Shown here piece after piece: positions 17,204-33,950 of a stretch of DNA of 33,950 nucleotides. The position numbers and the translations under genes were made by a program. The DNA is from an uncultured Metabacillus sp. (lineage in GTDB: Bacteria; Bacillota; Bacilli; Bacillales; Bacillaceae), in assembly GCF_947503125.1 (NCBI RefSeq), contig NZ_CANNCR010000044.1, forward strand, positions 1-33,950. Direction: 5' to 3'. The notes beneath the pieces are model-generated. The model saw only the letters and a list, made by a program, of their open reading frames with translations, did no database searches and was not told where the DNA came from. The first letter of the stretch is position 1. Every line of letters begins with the position of its first letter.

Positions 17204-17467
17204 TTAGTCTTGTTCTTGTTCTTGATCCTGTTCCTGGTCGGAATCTGCTTCTGCTTTTACTCTTGCACGGGAGTCACTATCTACCACAATATGAATATCT
17301 ACTTTTGCATTACCACTATTAAAGACTTTTGCATTATTAACGTTTTTATCTTTTAGTTCAATATCATTTTCGTTATCCAATTCATTATCTACTTTTGTTT
17401 TGTTTTCTGCGTCTGCTTTAGCTTTAGCTCTTGCTTCAGCTTCATTATCTTTTCCCCAATTTGACAT
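17204..17467 (-). CDS. hypothetical acidic protein, 87 aa, paralogue of the downstream gene
   Basis: I do not recognise this protein. It is highly charged: an Ala/Lys/Glu-rich N-terminal helix (about 8-25), an Asn/Asp-rich middle, the shared motif NSGNAKVDIHIVVDSDSRA (about 50-68) and a C-terminal repeat of Asp-Gln-Glu-Gln (QDQEQEQD). It has no cysteine and no hydrophobic segment, and was probably formed partly by duplication with the 101-residue neighbour. GGGAGGTGAGG precedes the ATG at 17467. A sigma-A-like promoter lies upstream. Confidence 0.75.
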   Translation of the reverse strand: MSNWGKDNEAEARAKAKADAENKTKVDNELDNENDIELKDKNVNNAKVFNSGNAKVDIHIVVDSDSRARVKAEADSDQEQDQEQEQD

Positions 17468-19788: not shown

Positions 19789-19815
19789 ACATAACCTAGA
19801 AATGATCATAAACTG
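19789..19815 (+). promoter_or_regulatory. possible sigma-K promoter of cotO
   Basis: AC (19789-19790), 16 bp and CATAAACTG (19807-19815, 5 of 6 fixed positions of CATAnnnTA). An overlapping perfect box, CATAACCTA, lies at 19790-19798. Either fits expression of a coat gene in the late mother cell. Confidence 0.45.
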
Positions 19816-20423: not shown

Positions 20424-20846
20424 TCATGTCAACATCTGTGGTGATAAGCATTGAATGGCACAACTATTCGTTACAACTACTTTAATGAAATCTTCCGTTT
20501 TTGATAATTTTTTTACATAGCCAATCTGATCTTCATTTGAAAGATGAATCAGTTCCCCGCTTGCATTTAATGGCTTTAGCAGTCTTAATGTAAGATGGAA
20601 GTTATGAATGGATTCCACTCGAAAAAATACAGTGCCATAACCTTTTACATCTATAAAATGATAGGCTTTAAACAATGCGCCATCTTTTAAAAATAAAAGG
20701 ATTGGAATGGAATCTCCTAAAAGGTTCACGGGATAAAGGAGATAGCGGTAGCGATGCACAGCACGTTGTTCTTCAACCGCGTTTTGTAGAGAGATAATTG
20801 TTTCTAGCACGTGAATCATGTAATGATCATCACTAGTCCTTTTCAT
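20424..20846 (-). CDS. CotZ/CotY-family spore coat protein, cysteine-poor paralogue
   Basis: A 140-residue protein related to CotZ/CotY/ExsY. Shared features with the next gene are the N-terminal helix ending LQNAVEEQ, DSIPILLFLKDGALFKAY, TVFFRVESIHN, LRLLKPL, and the C-terminal SCAIQCLSP. The classical family is cysteine-rich and forms a disulfide-linked crust; this copy has only two cysteines, both in SCAIQC. It may modulate the crust without cross-linking strongly. AAGGGAGGG precedes the ATG at 20846. It lies 149 nt downstream of the full-cysteine paralogue, with a terminator between them. Confidence 0.85.
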   Translation of the reverse strand: MKRTSDDHYMIHVLETIISLQNAVEEQRAVHRYRYLLYPVNLLGDSIPILLFLKDGALFKAYHFIDVKGYGTVFFRVESIHNFHLTLRLLKPLNASGELIHLSNEDQIGYVKKLSKTEDFIKVVVTNSCAIQCLSPQMLT

Positions 20847-20962
20847 TGGTACCCTCCCTTTCTATTATATATGCCTATATTAGAATAGATATAATAGAAG
20901 AAAAGGTAATAATGAAAATGCCTATTTATTAATAAATGGGCATTTATAAAAAGAACAACATG

Positions 20963-20989
20963 TAAAAAAGACTGCTGTGACCAGCAGTC
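20963..20989 (-). terminator. terminator after the cysteine-rich coat gene
   Basis: On the minus strand, GACTGCTG-GTCA-CAGCAGTC is followed by TTTTTTAC. It sits directly after the stop codon of the CotZ-type gene. Confidence 0.85.
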
Positions 20990-20995
20990 CATCTT

Positions 20996-21472
20996 TTATT
21001 TGCAGTGTTTTTTGTCCATCGCACGGTTTACTAAATCTGGTGATAAGCATTGAATAGCACAGAAGCAATCTAGATCTACTTCAATACAGAAGTCAGATTT
21101 TGCAAGTCCGAAGAAGTCACCGTCACAAGGATCACATACGCTCTCAGTGTCGCCATTAACATCAAAAGGACGCAGTAGTGATAATGTTGCACAGCAATCT
21201 TTTACGTGCTCAACGCGGAAGAAGATTGTTTTAAAGCAAGCCATATCACCTAAGAAGCCACCTACGTTACCGAAAGCTTTAAACAGATCACCTTTTTTAT
21301 CGTATAAAATGAATGGAATTGTATCTCTACCCGGATTAGCTGCTGGGCTTAACAAATTGCTGAAACAGCTAGTTGGACAGCTAATTTCTTCAACTGCTTC
21401 TTGCTCAGCTAAAATTTGCTCAACTGCTTCACATACGCAATTGTTATCGCGGTCTTTACCTTTGCAACCCAT
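20996..21472 (-). CDS. cotZ: spore coat / exosporium protein of the CotZ-CotY-ExsY family
   Basis: A 158-residue protein with 15 cysteines by my count. Blocks: CVCEAVEQI near the N-terminus, [53 protein letters not shown] and [19 protein letters not shown]. In B. subtilis CotY and CotZ form the crust; in the B. cereus group ExsY and CotY form the exosporium basal layer. Which one this equals cannot be told here, so the symbol is a family guess. TAAGGAGATG precedes the ATG at 21472. A sigma-K-like promoter lies at 21520-21547. Confidence 0.9.
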
Positions 21473-21519
21473 TTATTTTCATCTCCTTAAAATTAGTTAT
21501 TTGACTCTCTAGTCCTTAA

Positions 21520-21547
21520 CACAATATGTGAGTTATCCCTAGATGGT
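21520..21547 (-). promoter_or_regulatory. possible sigma-K promoter of the CotZ-type gene
   Basis: On the minus strand, AC (complement of 21546-21547), 17 bp and CATATTGTG (complement of 21520-21528). The -10 box has one mismatch to CATAnnnTA at the last base. Confidence 0.45.
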
Positions 21548-21651
21548 GTGGGCAATCGTCCAAAATTGAGGGAGGGGGGCTTTTCTTTTTTTGTGTATTT
21601 GTATTAGGTACAAGTGTCTGTAACGATGAGAAGCTAGCTTTTTAAGGAATG

Positions 21652-22935
21652 TTAATCAAGTAAGTTTTTAAACTCATGCCATTTTGAATGATTGACTTTC
21701 GTAATGCTAGATTGATGGTTTCTCACATTGTATATTGTAAAGTCACGATAACATAGTGGCCCTGTTTTCATTAATTCTTTTAATACTAAAACATCTTCAT
21801 ACAATTTACCCTCCTCAAAAGAAATGACAGGAAATCCGCCAATCGCTTTTAACTTATCTGTCCGATAAATTCTAGGTCCCAGAGGAAAATGGTAAGAAAG
21901 GAGTTCGTTTTCATCCATGACTGGTTTGCCATTCGTTACCTCACTAAATTTCATTTCATTTGAATCGAACTGCCGCCAATTTCTCAAATTTCCATAGAGG
22001 ACAGCTGCAGACAAAGGAAGTGTCATTATTTGCTCCTTAATTGTTGAAATCGCATCCGGGTCAAGCCAGTCGTCTGCATCAAGCTCTAAGATGAAATCTG
22101 AGGAAACATAGGGTAAAAGCTGGTTTAGAGCTCTTGCCTTTCCTTCGTTTTCTTTTTGGAATACCCGTATATTCCGTTCACCGTTCCATTTTGTAAGACG
22201 CTCATATGTCTTATCAGTTGAACCGTCATCAATGACTAATAGTTGATTAATTGGTGTATGTTGCAGCAGACAGGAGGTAATAGCAGTTTCCACATAGCTG
22301 GCCATATTATAGGTTGATATCATAACTGCTAAAGAGGGAGATTGATCATAAGCTCTTTTTAAAGGTGAAGAATATTTTGCGATAAACTCCCATTTATTTA
22401 TTGTTTTAGTATATGCTCTAGGATTAAAGGGCTTGACCATCGGTTTCGTTATTTTTACTATTTTTGCTTTTTCTATTTTTTTTAGCCAGGCTGGAAGGAC
22501 AGCTTCATTAAAAGGGATTTGTTCTTTTGTGAATAAAGGTGTTTGTTTTAAATAAGAGGTTTTTACAAGGAATGGCCGCTCTATTATATAATTTTTTACA
22601 CTTAAAGAATTAGTGAGGATATGGTTTTTATCACTTAATTTTGTAATAGCATCGTCTATGTTGGATATTAGTTGTTCATCCTTATAAAGAAATAAAACAT
22701 AGTCAGTAGTAATTGTAGGAATGCATCCATTTAAAGTTTTACCTAGATCATCTTCTGTCATATTTATCACTTGGTAATGATATAACGATTTATCTATGTG
22801 AAGGGAGGAGGTTTTTTCCCTTTTAATAAGTGTTAGAGATTTTAAGCGATGCGAAATGAAATGTAATGAATATAAAGTTTGAGTGAATACCGTTTGACTG
22901 GAGTAATCAAGTAAAAATACATGCAGGTCTTTCAA
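21652..22935 (-). CDS. GT2 glycosyltransferase with unassigned N-terminal half
   Basis: A 427-residue protein. The GT2 domain starts near residue 195 (SLAVMISTYNMASYVETAI) and shows VIDDGSTDKT, NEGKARALNQ, the DxD metal site in LELDADDW, and a C-terminal acceptor part with GGFPVISFEEGKLYEDV. The N-terminal 185 residues (MKDLHVFLLDYSSQTVF...) have no motif I recognise; they might be a decayed second GT fold. The start is TTG at 22935, with GGAGGAACTCAA before it. A sigma-K promoter with both boxes lies upstream at 22991-23017. It probably glycosylates a spore-surface component; no signal peptide, so it acts in the mother-cell cytoplasm. Confidence 0.85.
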   Translation of the reverse strand: MKDLHVFLLDYSSQTVFTQTLYSLHFISHRLKSLTLIKREKTSSLHIDKSLYHYQVINMTEDDLGKTLNGCIPTITTDYVLFLYKDEQLISNIDDAITKLSDKNHILTNSLSVKNYIIERPFLVKTSYLKQTPLFTKEQIPFNEAVLPAWLKKIEKAKIVKITKPMVKPFNPRAYTKTINKWEFIAKYSSPLKRAYDQSPSLAVMISTYNMASYVETAITSCLLQHTPINQLLVIDDGSTDKTYERLTKWNGERNIRVFQKENEGKARALNQLLPYVSSDFILELDADDWLDPDAISTIKEQIMTLPLSAAVLYGNLRNWRQFDSNEMKFSEVTNGKPVMDENELLSYHFPLGPRIYRTDKLKAIGGFPVISFEEGKLYEDVLVLKELMKTGPLCYRDFTIYNVRNHQSSITKVNHSKWHEFKNLLD

Positions 22936-22990
22936 TTGAGTTCCTCCATGAAATAAATTTTTAAGAGCTTCATATAGTTAAACCACTATT

Positions 22991-23017
22991 TAGCATATGA
23001 TGGCAAAGGATTAATGT
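22991..23017 (-). promoter_or_regulatory. sigma-K-type promoter of the GT2 gene
   Basis: On the minus strand, AC (complement of 23016-23017), exactly 16 bp and CATATGCTA (complement of 22991-22999). This matches the sigma-K consensus AC-N16-CATAnnnTA fully. The leader to the TTG start would be about 50 nt. Confidence 0.65.
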
Positions 23018-23073
23018 GTTGGTAAATATACTAGAAATTAATGAACTTATAAATACCGATAGCTGTGGATGGA

Positions 23074-23099
23074 ACATCTTTAAAGTTCTGCATATTCTA
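23074..23099 (+). promoter_or_regulatory. possible sigma-K promoter of the subtilase gene
   Basis: AC (23074-23075), 15 bp and CATATTCTA (23091-23099). The -10 box is perfect, the spacing one base short of the usual 16. It lies about 60 nt before the subtilase start and is divergent from the GT2 promoter. Confidence 0.5.
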
Positions 23100-23158
23100 T
23101 AGTAAAACGTGGATTAGTTCTTTATGAAGAAAAGGAATTTATACTTACGAGGAGATTA

Positions 23159-24400
23159 ATGATGGACTGGATAAATGAATATAAGGAGCGGATGGATTCG
23201 CCGCTTTTTAAATGTTTATTAGATAGCTATTCACATTTAGATGAGAATGAAACAACAAGAGTTCTAATTAAATTAAAATCGGGAACAAGTATTAACAAGC
23301 TTAAAGATTTGTGTGAACTAAGCCCTTCTGATCTTGAATTGAATCATGCAGTGCTATTGAATTATCTTTCTGGGAAGTTATCTGTTAAAACAATACAACA
23401 ATTGGTTGTCCACCCTAAAGTCGAAAAACTTTACCTTGATCGCAAAGTTCAGGCATTTTTAGACACTGCAGCAAAGTCAATGGGCAAAAATTATGTGAAT
23501 AATATTTATGGATTAACAGGGAAAGGTGTCACAATTGCAGTCTTAGATACCGGTATACATCCACATTCAGACTTTACACTACCCTCCAACCGAATCGTTG
23601 GCTTTGTCGATATGATCAATAGATACCCAGTTCCTTATGATGACCATGGTCATGGAACACATGTGGCGGGATGTGCTGCAGGAAATGGTTTCGCCTCCAA
23701 GGGAAGATATAGTAGTTTGGCTCCTGAAGCACAACTTGTTGGAGTGAAGGTATTAGATAAAAATGGAGTGGGGTATCTCTCGACAGTCATTTCCGGAATT
23801 AATTATTGTATAGAGAAGAAAGCTCTTTATAATATAAAAATTATTAACTTATCCCTAGGTTCTGAATCTATTGTACCATACCAAGAAGATCCCTTATCAC
23901 ATGCAGCAGAGCAAGCAATGAAAGCAGGGATTATTGTTCTTATGGCAGCAGATCATACTGGTTTGGCGGATAATATTACGACATTTGCAACAAATCCTAA
24001 TGTTATTACAGTAGGTGCAGCATCTGATCGGAAAACACCGATAATGGACGACGAATATATTAGTCTTTTTACGAGTAAATTACAGGTAATTGATAGCGTA
24101 ATAAAGCCTGATGTTTTCTTTCCGGGATTATGCATTACTGCTCCTCTTTCACCTAATTCCATATTAGCTAATCAATTAGAACCATTTGTTGTGAATCAGA
24201 ATTACATTACATTGTCGGGTTCATCTATGGCCACCGGTTTATGTTCCGGAGCTATTGCGTTAATTTTAAGTGCCTATCCTCCACTTTCTTCAGAAAAAAT
24301 GATGCAGCTTTTTTTACAGTACAGGCAGGGTGTTCCGAATATAGAGAGCTATGTAAAACTTCCTCATCTCTTTCAGTTACTGCTTAAGACTCCTTTATAG
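23159..24400 (+). CDS. AprX-like S8 serine protease, altered oxyanion-hole position
   Basis: A 413-residue subtilase without a signal peptide. A propeptide-like region (about 30-105, VLIKLKSG ... VEKLYLDRKVQAFLDTA) resembles that of B. subtilis AprX. The catalytic triad is D130 in AVLDTGIHPH, H165 in DHGHGTHVAG and S356 in SGSSMATG. Where subtilisins have AAGN with the oxyanion asparagine, this protein reads AADH (263-266), so His replaces Asn. The FSSRGP block seen in AprX is also missing, replaced by FTSKLQV. GAGGAGATTA precedes ATGATG; either ATG (23159 or 23162) may be used. It may be a spore-located protease with reduced or special activity. Confidence 0.88.
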   Translation: MMDWINEYKERMDSPLFKCLLDSYSHLDENETTRVLIKLKSGTSINKLKDLCELSPSDLELNHAVLLNYLSGKLSVKTIQQLVVHPKVEKLYLDRKVQAFLDTAAKSMGKNYVNNIYGLTGKGVTIAVLDTGIHPHSDFTLPSNRIVGFVDMINRYPVPYDDHGHGTHVAGCAAGNGFASKGRYSSLAPEAQLVGVKVLDKNGVGYLSTVISGINYCIEKKALYNIKIINLSLGSESIVPYQEDPLSHAAEQAMKAGIIVLMAADHTGLADNITTFATNPNVITVGAASDRKTPIMDDEYISLFTSKLQVIDSVIKPDVFFPGLCITAPLSPNSILANQLEPFVVNQNYITLSGSSMATGLCSGAIALILSAYPPLSSEKMMQLFLQYRQGVPNIESYVKLPHLFQLLLKTPL

Positions 24401-24427
24401 AAATAAAATAATATAACACTGTTTGAA

Positions 24428-24458
24428 AACTGGGGTCTTTCATCAAAAGGCCGCAGTT
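24428..24458 (+). terminator. weak hairpin after the subtilase gene
   Basis: AACTG (24428-24432) pairs with CAGTT (24454-24458) and CTTT with AAAG inside, with several mismatches; only a short A/T-rich stretch follows. It may be a weak terminator. Confidence 0.4.
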
Positions 24459-24473
24459 AAATTATTTGTCTAA

Positions 24474-24501
24474 ACAAATAGATTGAATTTTTCATACAAT
24501 A
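24474..24501 (+). promoter_or_regulatory. sigma-K/E-type promoter of the GT2-sulfotransferase pair
   Basis: AC (24474-24475), 17 bp and CATACAATA (24493-24501). The box is a perfect CATAnnnTA and also matches the sigma-E -10 CATACAnT, so either mother-cell sigma factor may read it. Confidence 0.6.
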
Positions 24502-24593
24502 CAAAAGGATTGTTGATAGATTAGAAAACATACATTCATTTTGTGTAAAGAATGAGTGGAGATTTTAAGAAAGCACAAGAAGGAGCATGAAAA

Positions 24594-25328
24594 ATGGAGA
24601 AAGTTTCAATTGTCATTCCTTTTTATAATTGTTCTTACGTTGAACATGCAATAGAAAGTGCGATCGGGCAAACATATGAAAATATCGAAGTGATTGTCGT
24701 AAATGATGGTTCTACTAAACATGTTGAAAAATTAAAACCATATATGAATAAAATCATCTATATTGAAAAGCCAAACGGAGGAACTGGCACCGCATTAAAT
24801 ATGGGGATCCGTCAGGCAACAGGTGATTATTTTTGTTGGCTTAGTTCGGATGATATTTTTTATTTTGACAAAATTAAAATTCAATTAGAGAAAATGAAAA
24901 AAGCTAATGCCATGGCAAGCTATACAAATTATTATGCGATTAACGGGAAAGGAGAAGTGATAAGTGGTCTGCAAGGTGTTTATACTCCTGATCGATTGGA
25001 ATTTTTAAGGACTATGAAACGTGGAAATATCATTAATGGCTGTACAGTAATGCTTAATATGAAACTATTTTCCGAGTTTGGCCTTTTTGATGAACAACTA
25101 CCTTATACACATGATTATGATTTATGGCTGAGAATTTTACAAAAATACGATTTTTTATATATTGATGAACCTTTGCTTCTATATCGTGACCATCCTGATA
25201 TGGGAACAAGAAAACATTGGGACACGATTATGCAAGAAATAGGCCTAGTTCAAAGAAAAAATCGTAGTTATATCAATCAATTAATTAAAGAGGAAAATAT
25301 GAAAAAACACAACAACGGACAGTATTAG
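24594..25328 (+). CDS. GT2 family glycosyltransferase
   Basis: A 244-residue single-domain GT-A enzyme. KVSIVIPFYNCSYVEHAI, IEVIVVNDGSTK, PNGGTGTALNMGI and the metal site WLSSDD (DxD equivalent) are present, followed by FDEQLPYTHDYDLWLRI, which holds the likely catalytic base region. It is cytoplasmic, without membrane helices. AGAAGGAGCATG lies before the ATG at 24594. It is followed after 62 nt by a sulfotransferase gene with its own strong Shine-Dalgarno; both probably share one mother-cell transcript. Donor and acceptor sugars cannot be read from sequence. Confidence 0.9.
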   Translation: MEKVSIVIPFYNCSYVEHAIESAIGQTYENIEVIVVNDGSTKHVEKLKPYMNKIIYIEKPNGGTGTALNMGIRQATGDYFCWLSSDDIFYFDKIKIQLEKMKKANAMASYTNYYAINGKGEVISGLQGVYTPDRLEFLRTMKRGNIINGCTVMLNMKLFSEFGLFDEQLPYTHDYDLWLRILQKYDFLYIDEPLLLYRDHPDMGTRKHWDTIMQEIGLVQRKNRSYINQLIKEENMKKHNNGQY

Positions 25329-25390
25329 GAATTTATTAAGAAGATCGCTTGTTTTGTGAAAAAAATATTATATAACTTAAAGGAGTTAAA

Positions 25391-26167
25391 ATGATGAACG
25401 GAAAGAAAGCGGATATTTTACCACCATTTCTAGTAACTTCTGTTCCCAAAAGCGGAACATATCTAGTGCATCAGATTTTAACAGGGATGCCCGGTGTTTC
25501 TTCTGAACACGATATGAAAAAAAGATTTTTTACCAATTCGTTTAATTTTCATGATTATAGTCAGGATCATCTTGCGCGTTTAAATTTACTAAAGGGGAAT
25601 GAGTTTGGTGTTGGTCATGTCAGGTATACCAAAAACTATTCAGACATGTTAGAAAGCATCAACATGAAGCACATATTTGTTTATCGTGATCCTCGGGATG
25701 TTTTAATTTCAATGTCTTATTATATTGCAGATGTTTGGAAAGAGAATCCCCTTCATGATGATTTTGTGAAAATGACACCAAAGCAGCGTCAATTAGCCTT
25801 ATTAAGAGGCGTTGATAATAAATGGATAGATTTCTATACTTATAATCTTCCTTATTATCAATGGCTCACTGAAAAAAGATCGTTCCATATTTCATTTGAA
25901 GAAATTATAAGCTCTCCAGCATCTAGAAAGGGAGCGCTTACAAGGCTTGTTCAATTTTTATGGAATGGTTTACAACCTCCTATACCGCTAGACCAAATGG
26001 TAAATGTCTTAGAGGCAAGTATCGATCCTAGAACAGCCGTTACTTTCCGCTCGGGTAAAATCGGGGCATGGAGAAATGAATTTGATGAAGAATTAAAAAC
26101 AGCATTTAAAGAAAAAGCAGGAGAATTATTAATTCGTTTTGGATATGAAAAAGATCATAATTGGTAA
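25391..26167 (+). CDS. PAPS-dependent sulfotransferase
   Basis: A 258-residue member of the sulfotransferase superfamily, which moves a sulfuryl group from PAPS to a hydroxyl or amine. The 5'-phosphosulfate loop is SVPKSGTYLV (PKSGT 19-23). The 3'-phosphate motif is FVYRDPRDVLISMSYY (96-111). The C-terminal RSGKIGAWRNEF (220-231) corresponds to the RKGxxGxWK motif. All three cofactor elements are there, so it should be active. AAAGGAG precedes ATGATG. Downstream of a GT2 gene, a sugar of the spore-surface glycan is a plausible acceptor, but this is inference. Convergent with a GT4 gene. Confidence 0.88.
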   Translation: MMNGKKADILPPFLVTSVPKSGTYLVHQILTGMPGVSSEHDMKKRFFTNSFNFHDYSQDHLARLNLLKGNEFGVGHVRYTKNYSDMLESINMKHIFVYRDPRDVLISMSYYIADVWKENPLHDDFVKMTPKQRQLALLRGVDNKWIDFYTYNLPYYQWLTEKRSFHISFEEIISSPASRKGALTRLVQFLWNGLQPPIPLDQMVNVLEASIDPRTAVTFRSGKIGAWRNEFDEELKTAFKEKAGELLIRFGYEKDHNW

Positions 26168-26176
26168 GAAAAACAA

Positions 26177-26259
26177 AAAGGGTCATATCCTTACAACAAT
26201 ATAATTGAACCTATATCTATTAAGGGTACAATATATTGTGTTTGCGGGATTGACCCTTT
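26177..26259. repeat. AAAGGGTC-ended hairpin element, 83 bp
   Basis: AAAGGGTCA (26177-26185) pairs perfectly with TGACCCTTT (26251-26259). ATCC/GGAT and ACAATATA/TATATTGT arms lie inside. The reverse complement resembles the element at 18614-18701 in ends, spacing and A/T-rich centre. Here it separates two convergent genes and could terminate both. Confidence 0.75.
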
Positions 26260-26275
26260 GAATTTTGAGAACACT

Positions 26276-27343
26276 TTATTTCAAGGTGTTAAGCATGTTC
26301 AAGAAATGATTTGCATACACAGACAGTGAAAAGTTAGAATGAACGAGTTTTTCTGCTTCATTAATAATCTGATTTCGAACCGGAGTGTTATTCATTATTT
26401 CATTTGCTTCTTCAACAGCTTTTTGAATGTCGTTGTGAGGATAAATTTTTCCAGTTTTATTATGGATGATGGATCGTTTAACCCCATCTGAGTCTGTTGT
26501 CAAAACAGGGCACCTGCAGCTCATTGCTTCAACTATTGCATATCCAAAACCTTCAACTTTCGAAGTAGAACATAAAAAGCCGCCTGAATGGCCAATCATT
26601 GAATAATATTCGGCCATTTTTTCATGTGGAATATTATCGAATAATCTTAATTTATTTGATAGGTTTAGGCTCTGTATAAGTTTAGTAAATGCTCTTCTTT
26701 CTTCTTGTGAAGAAAGTGATGCATCTTCGAATATCCAAATCTCTATGTCCGGACTATATTGTACGATTGAAGAGCAAATTCTTAAAAAATCTCTCCAATT
26801 TTTATTTTCTTCTAATCTACCGACCCAGCCAATGATGGGCAATGCTGGTTTTTCGTTTGATTTATATTGAAATATAGATGTGTCAATACAATTATCAAAA
26901 CAAAACTTTTTATGATCTGGATAGAGTTTATCAATCAATTGAACCAAATGAGGGGTTATTGGATATAAGATTCCACTTACATTATTAGGTTTAATAAAAC
27001 TAACGGCATCTGTTAACCACTTCTCAGCAGTATGGAAATCTCCAAGTCCTTGAACTTCAAAGATGATATGGCCTGTATAACCAAGATTTCTTAGACGTTC
27101 CACAAATGGGTAATCTGAGCAAATAATGACTAGATCATAATTTCCATTTATCAGAATTTCATTGATTTCCTTATCATCATTTGTAATAAATGTAGGAATA
27201 TCACGAATATTTTGTACACCTGATCCTTCAAAAAAATAAAGAAAGTGAAAATTTATTCCGTATTGACTAAGTGCTTTGCTTCTTTGACGGGCTAAGGTTT
27301 CCATTCCGCCGCTTGGAATATAATAAGTAAACAGTATATTCAT
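26276..27343 (-). CDS. GT4 family glycosyltransferase
   Basis: A 355-residue GT-B enzyme. GGME at 12-15 in the N-terminal domain, GWVGRLEENKNWRDFL (172-187) and the EX7E motif E264-E272 in SKVEGFGYAIVEAMSC are the signature elements of retaining GT4 enzymes. No signal peptide or membrane helix. AAAGGAGAT precedes the ATG at 27343. It is monocistronic, with a sigma-K-like promoter upstream, which fits a role in spore-surface glycan synthesis. Confidence 0.9.
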   Translation of the reverse strand: MNILFTYYIPSGGMETLARQRSKALSQYGINFHFLYFFEGSGVQNIRDIPTFITNDDKEINEILINGNYDLVIICSDYPFVERLRNLGYTGHIIFEVQGLGDFHTAEKWLTDAVSFIKPNNVSGILYPITPHLVQLIDKLYPDHKKFCFDNCIDTSIFQYKSNEKPALPIIGWVGRLEENKNWRDFLRICSSIVQYSPDIEIWIFEDASLSSQEERRAFTKLIQSLNLSNKLRLFDNIPHEKMAEYYSMIGHSGGFLCSTSKVEGFGYAIVEAMSCRCPVLTTDSDGVKRSIIHNKTGKIYPHNDIQKAVEEANEIMNNTPVRNQIINEAEKLVHSNFSLSVYANHFLNMLNTLK

Positions 27344-27413
27344 TTTTATCTCCTTTAAACTTAAGTTAGATCCTTCAGTTGAATAGAGAATGACTCTTTT
27401 TTTCCCGCTACTT

Positions 27414-27439
27414 AATCATATGCATTTATAAGGAAAAGT
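27414..27439 (-). promoter_or_regulatory. possible sigma-K promoter of the GT4 gene
   Basis: On the minus strand, AC (complement of 27438-27439), 15 bp and CATATGATT (complement of 27414-27422), one mismatch in the last base of the box. Confidence 0.4.
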
Positions 27440-27461
27440 TTAATGAAATGTTTAAAACTCT

Positions 27462-27478
27462 ATTACATGTCATGTAAT
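27462..27478. promoter_or_regulatory. perfect 17-bp palindrome, operator-like
   Basis: ATTACATGTCATGTAAT is an 8+1+8 perfect palindrome in the 388-nt gap between the GT4 gene and the frameshifted surface-protein gene, about 20 nt upstream of the GT4 -35 region. Its symmetry suggests a protein-binding site; I know no regulator with this consensus. The rest of the gap shows only a weak imperfect hairpin (27535-27583). Confidence 0.45.
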
Positions 27479-27731
27479 GGGGAGTGGCTGGATTTAGTAA
27501 AGTTCTTTTTGTTTGAATTTTAATTCAGAAAAAAGACTCCAGCTGGTCACCTTTTTTCCTTGTACTCGAAGGAGTTTGGAGCCTATCGCTTCATTCAAAA
27601 TAGTAATAAACAACATGGGCTTTTAAACCAAATATTTCTATTAATAATACTATATTAACGTTGAATACTAGTAAACAAGCACAATCAAATTCTTTCTTTT
27701 GACATAAGTTAATAGAAAGGAGGTGTTTGAT

Positions 27732-28149
27732 ATGCCGGAATTTCTTGGTTCAGGTTCTAGTGTTCCTTCTAACGGCAGTGGAACTCTTTCAATCCCAGTT
27801 CCTGCTTCACCAAATGCACTTAAATTGGCTGAGTTTGGCTTAAATTTATCAAATAATGTAAACAGGGTCATATTATGCAACGGTTGGAATTACTGCCCAG
27901 GTTGGAAATCCTACGGTTCTATTTAAGGTTTTTAGGAATACTGGAGGGATTATTCTGACTGTTCGCGGTGAATTACAGGTATCTGTAGACCAAAATAGAA
28001 CCATTTCATTTCAAGCTATCGATCTTAATGTTCCTACAGGGAATCAAGCATACTTTATTACAGTTGAATTGGAAAACTCATCATTAGTAAACTCTGCCAG
28101 AATTGTAGGACCGATCACTTTTTCAGGAACTGCGTTTAGCCAATTTTAA
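27732..28149 (+). pseudogene. frameshifted small spore-surface-like beta protein
   Basis: AAAGGAGGTG and an ATG at 27732 start a good frame: MPEFLGSGSSVPSNGSG, then TLSIPVPASPNALKLAEFG. It ends early at 27926. A second frame, shifted by +1 and open from 27862 to 28149 with no start codon of its own, continues naturally with YYATVGITAQVGNPTVLF, then ISFQAIDLNVPTGNQAYF and ending GPITFSGTAFSQF. Joining them near 27867-27876 gives about 138 residues of beta-rich, Val/Thr/Asn-rich sequence with no cysteine in the joined form. It resembles small exosporium or appendage jelly-roll proteins, but I cannot name the family. One extra base (or two lost) explains the break; sequencing error or recoding remain possible. 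Confidence 0.7.
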
Positions 28150-28159
28150 TCAATCAATG

Positions 28160-28203
28160 AAAAGGAGTTAGGTTTCACCTTTGTGATGGCCTTTCTCCTT
28201 TTT
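28160..28203 (+). terminator. terminator after the frameshifted gene
   Basis: AAAAGGAG (28160-28167) pairs with CTCCTTTT (28195-28202), with AGG/CCT inside and a T-run at the end. The intact signal argues that the gene upstream was recently functional. Confidence 0.75.
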
Positions 28204-28251
28204 ATATCATTAACAAGTCAAAGGTATTGAATACTTTTTTATTCCAATCTT

Positions 28252-28323
28252 AACGGGCAGTAAAACCCCCACTTCAAGATGTAAGCGGGATAATAAAATA
28301 AGTGGCGGATAACTGTCCGTTAA
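28252..28323. repeat. dispersed hairpin element, copy 2
   Basis: TTAACGGGCAGT at the left and ACTGTCCGTTAA at the right form the outer arms (one G-T wobble). CCCCCACTT (28266-28274) and AAGTGGCGG (28300-28308) form the inner arms, with one mismatch. An extra AAGCGGG lies in the loop. It is about 72 bp and more complete at its right end than copy 1 at 9104-9158. Confidence 0.75.
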
Positions 28324-28397
28324 AATTCGATGAAGGATTATTGTCCAAGTCAAGAGAGACATAAGGACGTGGAGGTTTAAGCATGATTAGTTTCACT

Positions 28398-29324
28398 TTA
28401 TGAAAGCAATGTTGAGATATTTTCAAGTAGGTGCTGAACTCTTGCTTTCGTAGAATGATGTGCTCTAACAAATTCATAACCGTTTTGAGAAATGGCTTTT
28501 CTTTCCTCTTCATGAATAAGATAATACTTGGCTTTTTCCATGAAATTATCCCTGTTTACTGCGATAAAATGAACACCATCAATTAAACCCAAATCTGTTG
28601 TTTCCTTCGTTGCCGGTGCCATTAATAATGTATTACATCCAAGTACCTCAAAGTACTTCATAAGGGTGTAACCATAAACGGAATTGCATGTAAGAAACAT
28701 CTTTGATCGATTTATTTCTTTAGCATAATCATCTCCTATTAGTGATCCACTGTTAACATTTTGAACTTCTGTATAGCCAGGATGTGGGTGATATACGAAA
28801 CCGGGTTGATTCTTCATTGTATTAAGCATAATTTCCCGCAGAGGATAAATATGCCGTACAATGGCGCCCATAATGAGCCAATTAATCGTTTTTGGAAGTT
28901 GAAAATCTTTATAAACCTCAATGTTTACGTGATGAGGCAGCCATACTAAACGATGAGCTAATTCAGGATACCATCTTAAAAAAGCATCCCTGTAATGTGG
29001 AAAGATAAAATCGATTTTATTTTTTTTTACATATTCTTTTCTTTCTTGAATCTTGTAAGAAATATCGTGGAAAATCATACCTTTAGGAATATTCACTTTT
29101 TCAAGTCCCACAATTTGAGGACAAAGTCTGGGATCAAGGAAGTCATTTAGGAAAATAAAATCTGGTTTATCAGGTAACTGGGTAAGTATTTTTAAAATAT
29201 GCCCATCTTCGGTCCACAACATAAGATCACATTGTTTCTTCATTTCTTCAGCTATGTAATAGCTGCTTTTCTCCATTTGTTGTGACCGGTCTCTTGTCAA
29301 AAACAATATTTTTAGTCTTTTCAT
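28398..29324 (-). CDS. CgeB-like glycosyltransferase
   Basis: About 308 residues when started at the ATG at 29324 (MKRLKILFLTRDRS, a typical GT-B first strand). The frame is open to an ATG at 29414, but the extra 30 residues look like leader. The C-terminal part GYTLMKYFEVLGCNTLLMAP followed by DGVHFIAV corresponds to the donor-binding block of the CgeB/DUF3880-type glycosyltransferases; CgeB is a late spore maturation protein of B. subtilis. No clear Shine-Dalgarno is visible for either start. It sits between the surface-protein gene and the deoxysugar operon, on the minus strand. Confidence 0.78.
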   Translation of the reverse strand: MKRLKILFLTRDRSQQMEKSSYYIAEEMKKQCDLMLWTEDGHILKILTQLPDKPDFIFLNDFLDPRLCPQIVGLEKVNIPKGMIFHDISYKIQERKEYVKKNKIDFIFPHYRDAFLRWYPELAHRLVWLPHHVNIEVYKDFQLPKTINWLIMGAIVRHIYPLREIMLNTMKNQPGFVYHPHPGYTEVQNVNSGSLIGDDYAKEINRSKMFLTCNSVYGYTLMKYFEVLGCNTLLMAPATKETTDLGLIDGVHFIAVNRDNFMEKAKYYLIHEEERKAISQNGYEFVRAHHSTKARVQHLLENISTLLS

Positions 29325-29420
29325 GATGTTACATACCCACTTTCCATAACAGATTAAGAATTCAAATTTAAAAAACATGCTTGAGCTTGATACCAGGCAG
29401 TATTTAGTACTCATTTGTAC

Positions 29421-29429
29421 TATCTTATG
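29421..29429 (-). promoter_or_regulatory. possible sigma-K -10 box of the CgeB-like gene
   Basis: CATAAGATA on the minus strand is a perfect CATAnnnTA box about 95 nt before the chosen start. No AC is found at 16-17 bp upstream, so only the -10 part is supported. Confidence 0.35.
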
Positions 29430-29487
29430 AAACCTATTTTATCTTGATTGTGTCTTTTCCTCCTTTTTTGTGGCATAAGCGCAATAT

Positions 29488-29550
29488 AAAAAAAAGGAGC
29501 GTCTTTCCATCATCTATGTTCTAGAAACAAACAAGATTGAAAGCAACTCC
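29488..29550 (-). terminator. terminator of the deoxysugar operon
   Basis: On the minus strand, GGAG-TTGCTTTC and GGAAAGACGCTCC form an imperfect stem (29541-29550 with 29495-29507), followed by a run of eight T. It lies about 30 nt after the last gene of the operon. Confidence 0.7.
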
Positions 29551-29581
29551 ATAAATTTATAGTAAATCGAGATGTTAACAA

Positions 29582-30487
29582 TCAAGGATTATTCTTACTT
29601 CCTCTGTAAAAATAAAGAATATCCCGCAAAGATGTCTCAATGGGAATCAATTGCTTCCAGCCTAATTCTATGAGTTTTTGAGTGGAAATGATAACTGGTT
29701 GTTCTAGCAGGTTATTCACTTGAGTGTTTACCTTGAAATCAACCGAGGTTAAGGCCTTGTATCCAATTATGATTTCATCTAAAGACCGGCTTTTTCCTGA
29801 AGAAATGTCATAAATTTCGCCTGAACTTCCTTTATTTAATAGGATCTCATAGGCAGTTACGGCATCTCTCACATCAATAAAATCACGTTGTACATATGGA
29901 TTATAGACTTCAAGTACCTTTTCTCCAGCATTTTCCTCCATTTCGACTATTCTTTGCGCAAAGATCGAACAAACTCCGCTTGAAAATCCTGGTCCTATTA
30001 AATTAGATGGTTTTGCAATGACAATATGCATCTTATATAAGGCAGCCCACGATTGGGCAATTAAAATTTGCAGGGTTTTGCTTAAGCTATAAGGATGTGT
30101 AAGAGTAGATAGATTGTTAGGATTGAATTGAAGAGCGGAGCCGACAACAACAATTTTGCAAGCAGGATTTACTTGACGCAACGCTTCCAGTAGGTAGGCG
30201 GTTGACATGATATTTGCTTCCATTGAAGAAATAGGATCACTCCATGACTTTCCTACATGGTTTTGTCCGGCCAAATGGAGAACATATTCAGGCTTTATTT
30301 TTTTGATTAGCTTGATAACATCTTCTTTTATCGTAAGATCACAATGTTCAACGGTTATCTTCTTATTAGAAAAAGAGCCATTTCTTGAAACAGCTATAAC
30401 ATGATAACCAGCTTTTAAGAAATGGCTGCATGCATGCTGGCCAGTAAAACCGCTTGCTCCGGTTATTAAAATGGCAGGCTGCTTCAT
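29582..30487 (-). CDS. NAD-dependent epimerase/dehydratase family protein
   Basis: A 301-residue extended short-chain dehydrogenase. The Rossmann motif GASGFTGQH (10-18), the active-site serine region VVGSALQF and Y133-x3-K137 in HPYSLSK are present, and QRDFIDVRDAV is a typical sugar-nucleotide site. It most resembles GDP-6-deoxy-4-keto-mannose reductases or UDP-sugar 4-epimerases. In this operon it may act as a further 4-reductase or epimerase on the 6-deoxy sugar. The start ATG overlaps the stop codon of the RmlD-like gene (ATGA). Last gene of four. Confidence 0.85.
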   Translation of the reverse strand: MKQPAILITGASGFTGQHACSHFLKAGYHVIAVSRNGSFSNKKITVEHCDLTIKEDVIKLIKKIKPEYVLHLAGQNHVGKSWSDPISSMEANIMSTAYLLEALRQVNPACKIVVVGSALQFNPNNLSTLTHPYSLSKTLQILIAQSWAALYKMHIVIAKPSNLIGPGFSSGVCSIFAQRIVEMEENAGEKVLEVYNPYVQRDFIDVRDAVTAYEILLNKGSSGEIYDISSGKSRSLDEIIIGYKALTSVDFKVNTQVNNLLEQPVIISTQKLIELGWKQLIPIETSLRDILYFYRGSKNNP

Positions 30488-31311
30488 TTGCCTCGCATCC
30501 AGCTATGCAATTCTTTAATCATTTCTTCATATGAAGGAAGCTGGTAGTGAAAATCTGTTCGAGTGCTTTTGATTGTTCGGTCGAGGACGATTTTATCATC
30601 TGGAGTAATGATCACGTCATCCTTTTTAAACACTTTTTGGATTAATTTCAGCAATGAATATTTCGAAATTTTTTCTTCTGCACCAAGATTGTAAAGACCA
30701 GTTACGTTATGCTCGATCATCGCATCGATTGCCTTTGCCAGCTCCAGCGTTGTAACTCCATTCCATAACACCTTTTGATAACCTTTTATTTCACCCTTTT
30801 GTTTCATAAACCATAAAAACAGCCCAATACCATCTTCTTTCAATTCCGGCCCGATGATAGAAGTCCGTATGGTTAAATGTTTATCACTGATAATTTCTCC
30901 CCAACGCTTGGACTGGGAATATACGGAAGTTCCATCAGGATGATCAAATTCAGTGTAATCACCTTTTGTTCCCGAAAAAACACAGTCCGTACTAATGTGG
31001 ATTAATTTTCCATTGTGACGTTCAACTAATTTAACTAATTGATGGGGCAATAAGCTATTGACCTGAAACGCAAGAACAGGATGATTGGTTGCCGCTTCAT
31101 TTAAAATGCCGATACCATTAATAATGATATCGGGATTGATCAACTCAATGATGTCCTCCAATTTTTTAATATCCGTAACATCCAGATAGAGTGAATCTTT
31201 ATCATTTTGGTCCCTTGATGTATAGAAGACATCGTGCTGTCCCTTCTGTTTAAAGTAATCCACTATGACATGTCCTGCCATCCCTTTTCCACCAAGGATC
31301 AATAATTTCAT
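30484..31311 (-). CDS. RmlD-like sugar-nucleotide 4-reductase
   Basis: A 275-residue reductase of the dTDP-4-dehydrorhamnose reductase family: GGKGMAGH (7-14), ISTDCVFSG (106-114) and Y131-x3-K135 in VYSQSK. In pathways with a UDP-GlcNAc 5-inverting dehydratase and a C2-epimerase of the FnlC type, an enzyme like this reduces the 4-keto group. CapF/FnlB, the reductase for L-FucNAc, has an extra C-terminal cupin domain (about 369 residues); this protein is too short for it and is closer to the WbvR type of the L-RhaNAc/L-QuiNAc route. It overlaps both neighbours by 4 nt. Confidence 0.87.
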   Translation of the reverse strand: MKLLILGGKGMAGHVIVDYFKQKGQHDVFYTSRDQNDKDSLYLDVTDIKKLEDIIELINPDIIINGIGILNEAATNHPVLAFQVNSLLPHQLVKLVERHNGKLIHISTDCVFSGTKGDYTEFDHPDGTSVYSQSKRWGEIISDKHLTIRTSIIGPELKEDGIGLFLWFMKQKGEIKGYQKVLWNGVTTLELAKAIDAMIEHNVTGLYNLGAEEKISKYSLLKLIQKVFKKDDVIITPDDKIVLDRTIKSTRTDFHYQLPSYEEMIKELHSWMRGK

Positions 31312-32297
31312 TTAATAAACCCACCTTTCAATAACATCTCTTTAATCTCAGCTTGGGTCATAAGTCCAGTACCAGAGTGATAACTTTGTAAATTAGCAGG
31401 TTTATAATCAGCATACTGCTCCTTGATTCCATCGATGTGAATGGAAGGAAGAATCACGAAATATTCCTCATCATAGGCAATCGTGGTTTTACTTTCATAT
31501 TCTGATAGAAGCAACTCATCAATTTTCTCACCTGGGCGTACCCCAAGGATTTCAATCTCAACATTCTCCTTCTTAGATGAATCGATTAATACCTGGGCAA
31601 GGTCCACGATTTTACATGCAGGCATTTTCATAACAAAAATTTCTCCGCCAACACTTTCAAAGGTTGCTTTAAAGACGAGTTTAATCGCATCCTGTACAGT
31701 TAAGAAGAAACGAGTCATATTTAGATCAGTAATGCCGACTTTTTGTTTTTCCTCAATTTGTTTTTTAAAGACATGGATGACACTGCCGTTCGTCCCTAAA
31801 ACATTTCCACCGCGTATACAGACGAATCTTGTTTTAGTGTTTAATGTGTTTGCATGTATAATGAGCCTTTCTCCCATCGCTTTTGATAAGCCATAAAAAT
31901 TTGATGGGTTAGAAGCCTTATCTGTTGAAATATAAACAACTCGATGAACCTCACAGGCAATTGCAGCATCGATTACATTTTGTGTACCAATGACGTTTGT
32001 TTTTAATGCTTCAATCGGCTGGTCCTCACAAACCGGGACATGCTTTAACGCTGCTAAATGGAAAACATAATCCACATTGTGACATGCTTCAATTAAGGAA
32101 TCCTTTTCCTTAATATCACCAATGATAAATTTCAATTTTGGGTTACTATCAAACTCTTGTTTCATCGTAAACTGAGCAGATTCATTTCTTGAAAAAATAC
32201 GGATCTCCTTTGGGTTATGCGTTAATAACTGGGAAATCAATTCATGTCCCCATGATCCTGTGCCTCCAGTAACTAAAACAATTTGATTATTAAACAA
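31308..32297 (-). CDS. UDP-GlcNAc 4,6-dehydratase (CapD/PseB/FnlA family)
   Basis: A 329-residue short-form polysaccharide biosynthesis protein. GGTGSWG (11-17) binds NAD(P); the catalytic T125-D126-K127 and Y135-x3-K139 lie in ISTDKASNPSNFYGLSK. Inverting dehydratases of this group turn UDP-GlcNAc into the UDP-4-keto-6-deoxy-L-arabino-hexose. CapE/FnlA enzymes have Met at the Tyr position; this one keeps Tyr, as PseB does. The start is TTG at 32297, with AGGAGG 8 nt upstream, overlapping the end of the epimerase gene by 8 nt. Confidence 0.88.
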   Translation of the reverse strand: MFNNQIVLVTGGTGSWGHELISQLLTHNPKEIRIFSRNESAQFTMKQEFDSNPKLKFIIGDIKEKDSLIEACHNVDYVFHLAALKHVPVCEDQPIEALKTNVIGTQNVIDAAIACEVHRVVYISTDKASNPSNFYGLSKAMGERLIIHANTLNTKTRFVCIRGGNVLGTNGSVIHVFKKQIEEKQKVGITDLNMTRFFLTVQDAIKLVFKATFESVGGEIFVMKMPACKIVDLAQVLIDSSKKENVEIEILGVRPGEKIDELLLSEYESKTTIAYDEEYFVILPSIHIDGIKEQYADYKPANLQSYHSGTGLMTQAEIKEMLLKGGFIK

Positions 32298-33381
32298 ATT
32301 CCATACCTCCTAGCAAAATTTTCATTACTTTATCTGAAACATTTGGGTGATCATATCCTTCAGGCAAAGACCATGTTTTCGGTTGGCTTACCATAACGTT
32401 TACGCAATTTACAATTTGAGAAGCGTTGATTCCAGATAACATATTGCTGCCACATGCAATGGTTTCCGGCCGTTCGGTCGTTTTGCGAATGGTGACCGTT
32501 GGGACGTGAAACAAACAACATTCCTCTTGTACCGTTCCGCTATCTGTTATCACGCAAAATGCATTTTTTTCTAATTTCACAAAATCAAAAAATCCAAATG
32601 GTTCGTGAAATTCTACTAATGAATGAAGCTTAAAATCTTGAATACGATCGATACGAGATTTGGTTCGGGGATGAATACTGCAAATAATCCTTTTTTTATA
32701 GGCCTCAGCGACAATATTTAAGCCTTTGAAAATTTCAAGTAAGCGATTTTCATGATCAACATTTTCCGCACGATGTGTTGTGACTAAAAAGTAGTCATCT
32801 TTTTTAAGGTTTAAGCTTGAAAGAATCTTGCTGTCCTCAATCTCTGTATCATAATGCTGTAAAACCTCGTTAATTGGATTACCCGAGATAAAAATCCGAT
32901 TTCGTGGAAAACCCTCTTTCACTAAGTTTTCTTTACTTTGAGGTGTATAAGGAAGATTAATACTAGAAATGGCATCAATCACACGACGATTTTTCTCTTC
33001 TGGAACTTCTAAATCAAAGCATCGGTTTCCAGCTTCCATATGCACCACTGGTATTCCCATCCGTTCAGCTAAAATAGCACTTAAACCGCTGTTTGTATCG
33101 CCTAATACGAGAACTCTATCTGGCTTCTCTTTAAGAAAAATGGCTTCTAGCCTTTTATACATGCCTGATAACTGCTCCCCAAGAGATTGCTGCTGATTCG
33201 ACAAGATATAATCAGGTTTTCGAACCCCTAATTGTTCGAAAAAGATATCACTTAATGAAGAAGTGAAATTTTGTCCGGTAAAGACCAAACAATGCTTTTC
33301 TGCATATATGTCGAGTTTTTTTATCGTAAGGCTCAAGCGAATAATTTCTGGCCTGGTACCTAAGATTGTCATTACTTTCAT
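32290..33381 (-). CDS. UDP-sugar C2-epimerase of the FnlC/CapG/WbvD type
   Basis: A 363-residue GT-B-fold non-hydrolysing epimerase related to WecB. The block HMEAGNRCFDLEVPEEKNRR (114-133), with INLPYT after it, is the version found in FnlC/CapG/WbvD, which act on UDP-2-acetamido-2,6-dideoxy-L-sugars; true WecB has EAGLRTGD there. TILGTRPEIIR (5-15), TTHRAENVD and TDSGTVQEEC are common to the fold. The ATG at 33381 is chosen: AGAGGG lies 6 nt upstream; a longer frame begins at 33405. First gene of the four-gene operon; it probably gives UDP-L-QuiNAc or UDP-L-FucNAc. Confidence 0.87.
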   Translation of the reverse strand: MKVMTILGTRPEIIRLSLTIKKLDIYAEKHCLVFTGQNFTSSLSDIFFEQLGVRKPDYILSNQQQSLGEQLSGMYKRLEAIFLKEKPDRVLVLGDTNSGLSAILAERMGIPVVHMEAGNRCFDLEVPEEKNRRVIDAISSINLPYTPQSKENLVKEGFPRNRIFISGNPINEVLQHYDTEIEDSKILSSLNLKKDDYFLVTTHRAENVDHENRLLEIFKGLNIVAEAYKKRIICSIHPRTKSRIDRIQDFKLHSLVEFHEPFGFFDFVKLEKNAFCVITDSGTVQEECCLFHVPTVTIRKTTERPETIACGSNMLSGINASQIVNCVNVMVSQPKTWSLPEGYDHPNVSDKVMKILLGGMEFV

Positions 33382-33441
33382 AGTGTGCCCTCTCATATCC
33401 TTCATTTTTAGTTTTTTGTTCCTATTAGACGCTTTCTCTTA

Positions 33442-33450
33442 TAGATTATG
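33442..33450 (-). promoter_or_regulatory. possible sigma-K -10 box of the deoxysugar operon
   Basis: CATAATCTA on the minus strand is a perfect CATAnnnTA box about 60 nt upstream of the first gene. The base pair at the expected AC position reads AG, so the -35 part is imperfect. Confidence 0.35.
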
Positions 33451-33650
33451 CAGTCATTCATATAATGCTATAGGCAACTCTATTAACTTTTTGTTTGCCC
33501 AGTGGTCATAAGGAAAACTATAACATGGAGAACAATCAAGGAATGTAAGGTCATTCATACAAACTTGTAAACGATAGGCTAACAGTAATTCGGATTGCAT
33601 GAGGGCCGCATATAAAATACCATGATGATCTTAAATAAAAGAGTGATAAC

Positions 33651-33905
33651 ATGACCTTGTACGGGATGATGACAGTTTGTATCGTATGTCTATTGGTTTT
33701 CGTATTAGTAGCGGATAAATTTGAAACTGATCTTGTGATGTTCACTGCGTTAGTCTTATTGATGGTTTCTGGTATTTTAAGTCCTGAGGAAGCGTTAATA
33801 GGCTTTGCAAATGAGGCAACGGTAACAGTAGGGGCTTTATTTATTGTGATTCATTCCATAAAAAACACCTATTATCCTGAATTATTCACAGATTTTCTAA
33901 TATAG
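33651..33905 (+). pseudogene. truncated N-terminus of an SLC13-type permease
   Basis: An 84-residue open frame. Residues 1-66 match the start of SLC13/TrkA-C-type permeases: two hydrophobic helices joined by ADKFETDLVMF, then GILSPEEALIGFANEATVTVGALFIV. After that the family continues for 500 or more residues, but here the frame changes to unrelated sequence (IHSIKNTYYPELFTDFLI) and stops. It is probably a remnant left by deletion or rearrangement. AAAGAGTG precedes the ATG. The window ends 45 nt later, so I cannot see whether the rest of the gene lies beyond. Confidence 0.7.
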
Positions 33906-33950
33906 GCTAATATCGCCTATCTAATCAGCTTTCTTGTTACTATTTAATGC

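Follow-up and report, generated by a model that had tools for sequence, protein, structure and literature searches.

The window analysed here, one entire contig (C44, 33,950 bases) of the 5.44-Mb, 244-contig genome of an uncultured Metabacillus sp., carries coat genes together with genes for glycosyltransferases, a sulfotransferase and nucleotide-sugar synthesis that probably form a late mother-cell (sigma-K-type) island, making an L-amino-deoxysugar glycan on the spore surface that would be sulfated from 3'-phosphoadenosine-5'-phosphosulfate (PAPS). Gene content, catalytic motifs, linkage and the conservation of promoter-like boxes are read directly from the DNA, and from them we infer sigma-K dependence, the identity of the sugar, its acceptor and sulfation of the spore. 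In the scheme that we propose, the enzymes of the wecB-pseB-rmlD operon would convert UDP-GlcNAc to a UDP-activated L-2-acetamido-2,6-dideoxyhexose, most likely UDP-L-Rha2NAc and thence UDP-L-Qui2NAc, and the product of a fourth sugar gene would yield a further reduced or epimerised derivative. Next, a soluble GT4 enzyme, two GT2 enzymes and a CgeB-like transferase could assemble the glycan in the mother-cell cytoplasm on a coat or exosporium protein, a route that would make glycan export unnecessary because the mother cell later lyses. Finally, the PAPS-dependent sulfotransferase could add sulfate, giving the spore surface a fixed negative charge. In the window strain, housekeeping genes would supply PAPS; many relatives could draw it from an ATP sulfurylase, an adenylyl-sulfate (APS) kinase and an anion permease belonging to the module itself.

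The gene content described in an initial annotation of this DNA is confirmed: CotO, two CotZ-family proteins, two GT2 and one GT4 glycosyltransferase, a CgeB-like transferase, a sulfotransferase, an S8 subtilase and a nucleotide-sugar operon are all present (Table 1). What that account of the island missed is the breadth of the module and, in relatives, its PAPS-supply genes. The sulfotransferase scores over the PF00685 cut-off (52.8 bits versus 22), and residues K20, S21, G22, T23, H76, R99, S107, R220, G222, G225 and W227 are invariant in five relatives; the conserved C-terminal motif is RxGKIGxW, the stretch from R99 to S107 is kept likewise, and H76 aligns with a histidine of SULT4A1. We take these motifs to be the 5'-phosphosulfate loop, the catalytic histidine, the 3'-phosphate motif and the C-terminal RxGxxGxW of such enzymes.

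Named genomes were searched with an alignment of five sulfotransferases, and the best 80 of 117 confirmed relatives, at 75 distinct loci (29 from Bacillales and 46 from other groups, sorted by record title), were scored for linkage in 10-kb flanks. Flanking DNA contains the three-gene sugar operon in 22/29 Bacillales loci versus 0/46 others (p 3e-13), the GT4 gene in 23/29 versus 0/46, and the fourth sugar gene in 24/29 versus 0/46, a contrast that is favoured by the shortness of some non-Bacillales loci. Because the sulfotransferase, the sugar set and the GT4 gene are linked in this way, we count the set as a module. Across 21 Metabacillus genomes, which include M. crassostreae (G002), M. malikii (G009), Bacillus sp. 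J37 (G015) and Bacillus sp. SA1-12 (G016), the sulfotransferase occurs in five of the six with the fourth sugar gene and in none of the 15 without it (p 3e-4). SA1-12 is the closest genome encountered, with a CotZ 99% identical and four sugar-operon proteins 94-99% identical to those of the window. In the sixth genome, G014, there is no sulfotransferase, and wecB and rmlD match over just 27% and 20% of their length; its sugar operon looks decayed. At this site (L173:6494-9035), about 28 kb from cotZ, the fourth gene and the dehydratase are of intact length and the wecB and rmlD matches are short.

An alternative is that the spore-surface glycan is not sulfated and that the sulfotransferase acts on another substrate, either a small molecule or a coat-protein side chain. 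Such a role would fit the nearest solved relatives of the enzyme, which are SULT-type small-molecule sulfotransferases, as well as the G014 operon remnants with no sulfotransferase and four loci (L093, L095, L102 and L103) with a sulfotransferase and no sugar operon. However, the sulfotransferase, the sugar operon and the GT4 gene are linked in Bacillales and not in other groups, and GT2 and sulfotransferase share one reading frame in L109 and L112, which makes a glycan-independent substrate rather unlikely in our judgement. In L109, L111 and L112, the three sugar genes were not found, and genes for a nucleotide-sugar dehydrogenase, an oxidoreductase and an aminotransferase lie nearby; it appears that the sugar can change while the fourth gene, the sulfotransferase and the GT4 gene stay. 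In Bacillus relatives (L109:8735-10747, L109:10796-12538 and L112:8765-10747), the one-frame GT2-sulfotransferase is accompanied by a laminin-G-like domain fused to GT4. L109 also encodes an NTTRR-F1 collagen-like protein (L109:17281-18921), a candidate glycan acceptor whose gene lies about 6.5 kb away from that for the GT2-sulfotransferase and has CATAnnnTA upstream.

The proposed sulfation of the glycan would require PAPS, and neighbour clustering (minimum open reading frame 70 residues) showed that 11 of the 29 Bacillales loci encode ATP sulfurylase and 12 encode APS kinase, with either or both in 15; one or both genes occur in 4 of the 46 loci from other groups. A CitMHS/TrkA_C (DASS-type) permease, whose substrate may be sulfate, is present in 9/29 Bacillales loci versus 0/46 others. 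In L016, the permease, APS kinase, ATP sulfurylase and sugar operon are consecutive on one strand (L097, being the same record as L016, was excluded from neighbour clustering and from the wecB and gene-by-gene box counts below). APS kinase is found in all 21 Metabacillus genomes, and a second copy in two of them, both module-bearing (p 0.048).

On the sugar side, the enzymes of the L-Rha2NAc/L-Qui2NAc pathway are recognised at family level only, as a dehydratase, an RmlD-like reductase and a non-hydrolysing 2-epimerase. Their sizes (329, 275 and 371 residues) compare with 323, 270 and 370 residues for Megavirus Mg534, Mg535 and Mg536, and the solved relatives of the dehydratase include Mg534 (4tqg). 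In the portion of the viral report available to us, Mg534/535/536 form an L-Rha2NAc/L-Qui2NAc set of which only the L-Rha2NAc part is experimentally validated (PMC10117803). There is no aminotransferase among the genes of the window operon, which disfavours a pseudaminic-acid route. We also considered the fourth sugar gene as a GDP-rhamnose reductase, given its nearest solved structure, and set this assignment aside in view of the dehydrogenase, oxidoreductase and aminotransferase beside its L109 relative.

With respect to regulation, the initial annotation placed these genes in one late mother-cell (sigma-K) glycan regulon, pointing to CATAnnnTA boxes upstream of most units. The five perfect boxes that it listed are all present, as is the full AC-N16-CATATGCTA layout before the larger GT2 gene, and what it called a near match before cotO is actually a perfect box. 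Box frequency is not raised: the window holds 25 CATAnnnTA sites versus 23.94 +/- 5.17 in shuffles, and AC-N16-CATAnnnTA occurs 125 times in the whole genome versus 230 for the reversed pattern. Because raw frequency is silent, position and conservation were used as tests instead. Of the 11 module units with 50 bp or more of upstream sequence, 6 are preceded by a box, versus 28 of 268 background units drawn from twenty 20-kb stretches (400 kb) of the same genome. Placement is thus above chance, with a Fisher p of 6e-4 that is flattering, since the region had been chosen for its boxes.

Comparison of wecB upstream regions among relatives is a less biased test. CATAnnnTA precedes wecB in all five genus genomes that hold both the sugar operon and the sulfotransferase, and it precedes the wecB-pseB-rmlD-epim operon in 17 of 23 Bacillales loci (shuffles 0.92 +/- 0.91). 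After removal of 8 of these 23 upstream regions, each more than 60% identical to one already kept, the box is found in 10/15, versus 0.55 +/- 0.71 in shuffles (maximum 3 in 1000) and 0/15 in the opposite orientation. The location of the sugar operon varies among genomes, yet the box before wecB persists. Gene starts in the box tests were chosen by script, so that box distances could be off by a few codons. A C lies 17 or 18 bp upstream of the wecB box in 17/17 cases, read by eye (the first of two boxes in L014 is without it), compared with 223 of 412 boxes (54%) overall in these loci. As given in the available part of PMC4750369, the SigK-dependent bclA and bclB promoters of B. thuringiensis read CAC-N16-CATATGTTA and AGC-N16-CATATAATT, and the B. 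subtilis sigma-K consensus, in the part of PMC517825 available, has a gap of 14-16 nt between a 5-nt -35 and a 10-nt -10 element. The window wecB site, AGC-N16-CATAATCTA, shares its layout with the SigK-dependent bclB promoter.

The coat genes carry related sites. CATAnnnTG with AC-N17 lies at -52 to -59 upstream of cotZ in 21/21 genus genomes, and CATAnnnT(A/G) at -43 to -62 upstream of cotO in 20/20 genus rows, 18 of them with AC-N17; rows were kept at 38% identity or more with the match beginning within the first 12 residues (G003 gave no cotO row), and, as these are orthologues of recent common ancestry, this conservation comes without a chance control. A sigma-K-type -10 with a -35 C at sigma-K spacing is therefore present by sequence before the wecB operon, cotZ and cotO, the -10 of the latter two often ending in TG. 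In most genus members, the second CotZ gene also has, a short distance upstream, an AC-N16/17-CTTATA(C/T)TA site, which was not seen in the window or SA1-12.

Tested gene by gene in the Bacillales loci (minimum open reading frame 90 residues), boxes precede 17/22 wecB, 7/10 ExsF-like and 3/3 S8 genes, compared with 31/172 unlabelled neighbours. Further values are 8/22 for the GT2 family, 3/9 for cotZ-labelled genes and 1/5 each for the permease and ATP sulfurylase. The outcome is clear for wecB, suggestive, with small numbers, for ExsF-like and S8 genes, and near background for the others; for the whole module it is 56/156 versus 31/172 (p 2e-4). The proposed regulon is thus supported for the units headed by wecB, ExsF-like, S8 and cotZ/cotO boxes, and also draws support from the distribution of GT4 homologues, which occur in 37 of 398 Bacilli genomes (the window's own included), all 37 with SpoIVA, itself present in 267/398. 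It does not extend as readily to GT4, sulfotransferase, CgeB-like and APS kinase genes, whose boxes are near background, and the box before the 427-residue GT2 gene is not conserved: it was not found before its 82%-identical G016 relative, where another GT2 gene adjoins upstream.

Several observations weigh against a sigma-K-type island for a sulfated glycan. First, boxes are not clearly above the neighbours' frequency before GT4 (5/20), sulfotransferase (5/27), CgeB-like (1/7) or APS kinase (0/6) genes; without wecB, the module's excess shrinks to 39/134 versus 31/172 (merely p 0.016), and 6/23 wecB operons have no box. Second, 32 of the 37 GT4 genomes, one of them the window's own, come from one family, and this relatedness inflates the GT4-SpoIVA result. 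Third, the dehydratase falls below equivalog cut-offs (323.3 versus 407.75 for PseB; 262.9 versus 730 for FnlA), APS kinase exists in one copy in the window strain, on contig C1, and its module-side permease is a fragment. Finally, the fourth sugar gene occurs in merely 6/21 genus genomes, so the module is dispensable, and SA1-12 (L108) is the one Bacillales locus of the 29 where CotZ/CotO were seen beside it, matching the arrangement in the window; elsewhere, its coat-like neighbours encode ExsF-like or Cys-rich proteins that match no family. We tried the small Cys-rich proteins (L090, L091, L098-L101 and L158) as CotZ homologues, but profile comparison gave 2.9% probability and we call them only Cys-rich. 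The module adjoins CotZ in the window and SA1-12 and is on a contig other than that of cotZ in G002, G009 and G015, a pattern consistent with a module that moves or is re-inserted.

Some of these points would also suit a vegetative capsule or exopolysaccharide locus that lies beside cotZ by accident, its boxes being chance: elsewhere, enzymes of such types work in capsule and O-antigen synthesis; the box is, overall, no more than background in frequency; and in three genus genomes the module and cotZ lie apart. We give this possibility little weight, as the box before the wecB operon is conserved, GT4 homologues are confined to SpoIVA-bearing genomes, and no transmembrane-like segment was found in the window's module enzymes other than the CgeB-like protein, which this count does not cover, so that there is no flippase or polymerase among them. 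It is about equally improbable that the module makes a spore-surface glycan with its main units under sigma-E, earlier in the mother cell. Sigma-E and sigma-K promoters share CATA in the -10 element, and we take CATACAATA, before the GT2-sulfotransferase unit, and CATACAGTA, the wecB box of L104, to fit the sigma-E -10 (CATACAnT). Nevertheless, just 1 of 17 box-bearing wecB upstream regions fits CATACAnT, and the C at -17/-18 and the AGC-N16 layout agree with SigK-dependent bclB. On balance, sigma-K-type control of a sulfated spore-surface glycan remains the reading that we favour.

Table 1. Genes and promoter-like sites of the island, by position in the window
Feature	Position	Strand	Details
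Perfect box CATAACCTA	19790..19798	+	60 bp before cotO ATG 19850; AC absent at 15-17
cotO, coat protein PF14153	19850..20353	+	E 1.1e-29, 104.2 bits vs cut-off 35
Second CotZ-family protein PF10612	20424..20846	-	31.2 bits vs cut-off 24; no upstream box in window
cotZ PF10612	20996..21472	-	E 1.2e-30, 107.2 bits vs 24; in 21/21 genus genomes
GT2, 427 residues	21652..22935	-	N-terminal extension of ~190 residues
AC-N16-CATATGCTA, full sigma-K-type layout	22991..23017	-	Before 427-residue GT2 gene
Box CATATTCTA (AC-N15)	23091..23099	+	Before subtilase
S8 subtilase PF00082	23159..24400	+	E 1.2e-40; relatives in 2/29 Bacillales loci
Box CATACAATA (AC-N17)	24493..24501	+	Before GT2-sulfotransferase unit
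GT2 glycosyltransferase	24594..25328	+	E 5.5e-30
PAPS-type sulfotransferase PF00685	25391..26167	+	E 5e-14; 62 bp downstream of GT2 gene
GT4 glycosyltransferase	26276..27343	-	
ExsF-like jelly-roll gene	27733..28149	+	Frame broken near middle; open relatives in seven Bacillales loci
CgeB-like glycosyltransferase PF13524, Glyco_trans_1_2	28398..29324	-	308 residues from ATG 29324; E 4.1e-20 (scanned from 29414)
Box CATAAGATA	29421..29429	-	~100 bp upstream of CgeB-like start
Nucleotide-sugar short-chain dehydrogenase/reductase (fourth sugar gene)	29582..30487	-	Nearest solved structure GDP-6-deoxy-4-hexulose reductase 2pk3
RmlD-like 4-reductase, 275 residues	30484..31311	-	RmlD E 2.8e-29, below RmlD equivalog cut-off
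PseB/CapE-type UDP-GlcNAc 4,6-dehydratase/5-epimerase, 329 residues	31308..32297	-	PseB E 1.4e-96; 4tqg E 1.1e-44
WecB-type UDP-GlcNAc 2-epimerase	32290..33381	-	TIGR00236 285.3 bits vs cut-off 210.15
AGC-N16-CATAATCTA promoter-like site	33442..33469 (-10 box 33442-33450)	-	Before sugar operon
DASS/SLC13-type anion permease, N-terminal fragment	33651..33905	+	PF03600 E 3.8e-5, below cut-off; contig ends 33950

For cotO, the profile scan used ATG 19802, and the start at 19850 was picked for its ribosome-binding site; for wecB, the conserved ATG at 33381 was taken as start, the longest open reading frame beginning at 33405. The 427-residue GT2 resembles CgeD in size and layout, a likeness that we do not extend to orthology, and no match at E<=1e-25 was found in 44 genomes of genus g2, a comparison that did not include CgeD itself. 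CgeB-like relatives, 44-65% identical, occur in nine Bacillales loci, counts that rest on the L090 protein as query plus a second in-frame window query. The frame break in the ExsF-like gene may reflect a pseudogene or an assembly error. A jelly-roll relative, rather than the window copy, has a TNF/C1q-like fold, like BxpB, ExsFA and BclA; the Foldseek and VIA lists are not exhaustive for folds, and the absence of other families from them is uninformative. At the permease position, SA1-12 has a longer frame (L007:9101-10609), and the window sequence (33651-33950) tracks SA1-12 at first and diverges shortly before the contig end, as though an inserted or repeated element had interrupted the gene. 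Elsewhere in the window, two small charged proteins are encoded on the reverse strand just before fabI (16809-17114 and 17204-17467), with no NCBIfam match and with SA1-12 relatives in the same place; they are possibly further spore genes.

More broadly, there is perhaps an even chance that the spores of many Bacillales bear a sulfated L-amino-deoxysugar glycan made by a sigma-K-type mother-cell module, often with its own anion uptake and PAPS synthesis. From the conserved combination of an L-amino-deoxysugar pathway, a sulfotransferase and PAPS supply, one would expect spores throughout many members of the order to have a polyanionic, sulfated surface; spore-surface glycans bear on spore adhesion and wetting. 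We found no report of a sulfated bacterial spore glycan, judged by titles and the starts of abstracts in a literature sample that left most subscription journals uncovered. If correct, the proposal would define a point tying sulfur metabolism to late sporulation. In practical terms, the sulfotransferase, the GT4 gene and the wecB operon together offer a sequence handle for locating such islands.

Among known systems, the pseB-like enzyme belongs with the CapE-type/PseB-type UDP-GlcNAc dehydratases. Unlike PseB systems, the operon has no PseC aminotransferase, and its 275-residue RmlD-like reductase presumably stands in place of the CapF-type reductase of CapE systems. As in B. subtilis crust glycosylation (sps, yfnHGFED and cge), described in the part of PMC7439481 available to us, nucleotide-sugar and glycosyltransferase genes are combined here for a putative spore-surface glycan; in contrast to the legionaminic-acid pathway of sps described in the same part of that source, the window has an L-2-acetamido-2,6-dideoxyhexose-type operon plus a sulfotransferase. 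The B. cereus group exosporium (bclA, bclB, bxpB and exsY), as far as it is described in the available part of PMC4750369, has parallels in its late SigK-type promoters and its CotZ-related and jelly-roll surface proteins, whereas the sulfotransferase and PAPS genes found here are not among the exosporium genes described there. No solved structure matched the jelly-roll family of the island by sequence: a profile of seven relatives found no PDB chain at E<=1. The fibre-sugar cluster of Megavirus and Moumouvirus has the same three enzyme types, of the same sizes, for L-Rha2NAc/L-Qui2NAc, and in Moumouvirus australiensis (ma457-ma461) a sulfotransferase and an adenylyl-sulfate kinase lie beside the same three sugar genes, according to the portion of PMC10117803 available. 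The viral cluster differs in serving capsid fibres, not spores, and has no spore promoters. Nevertheless, the giant-virus pairing of these sugar enzymes with a sulfotransferase and an APS kinase, as that portion of the source presents it, hints at a repeated solution.

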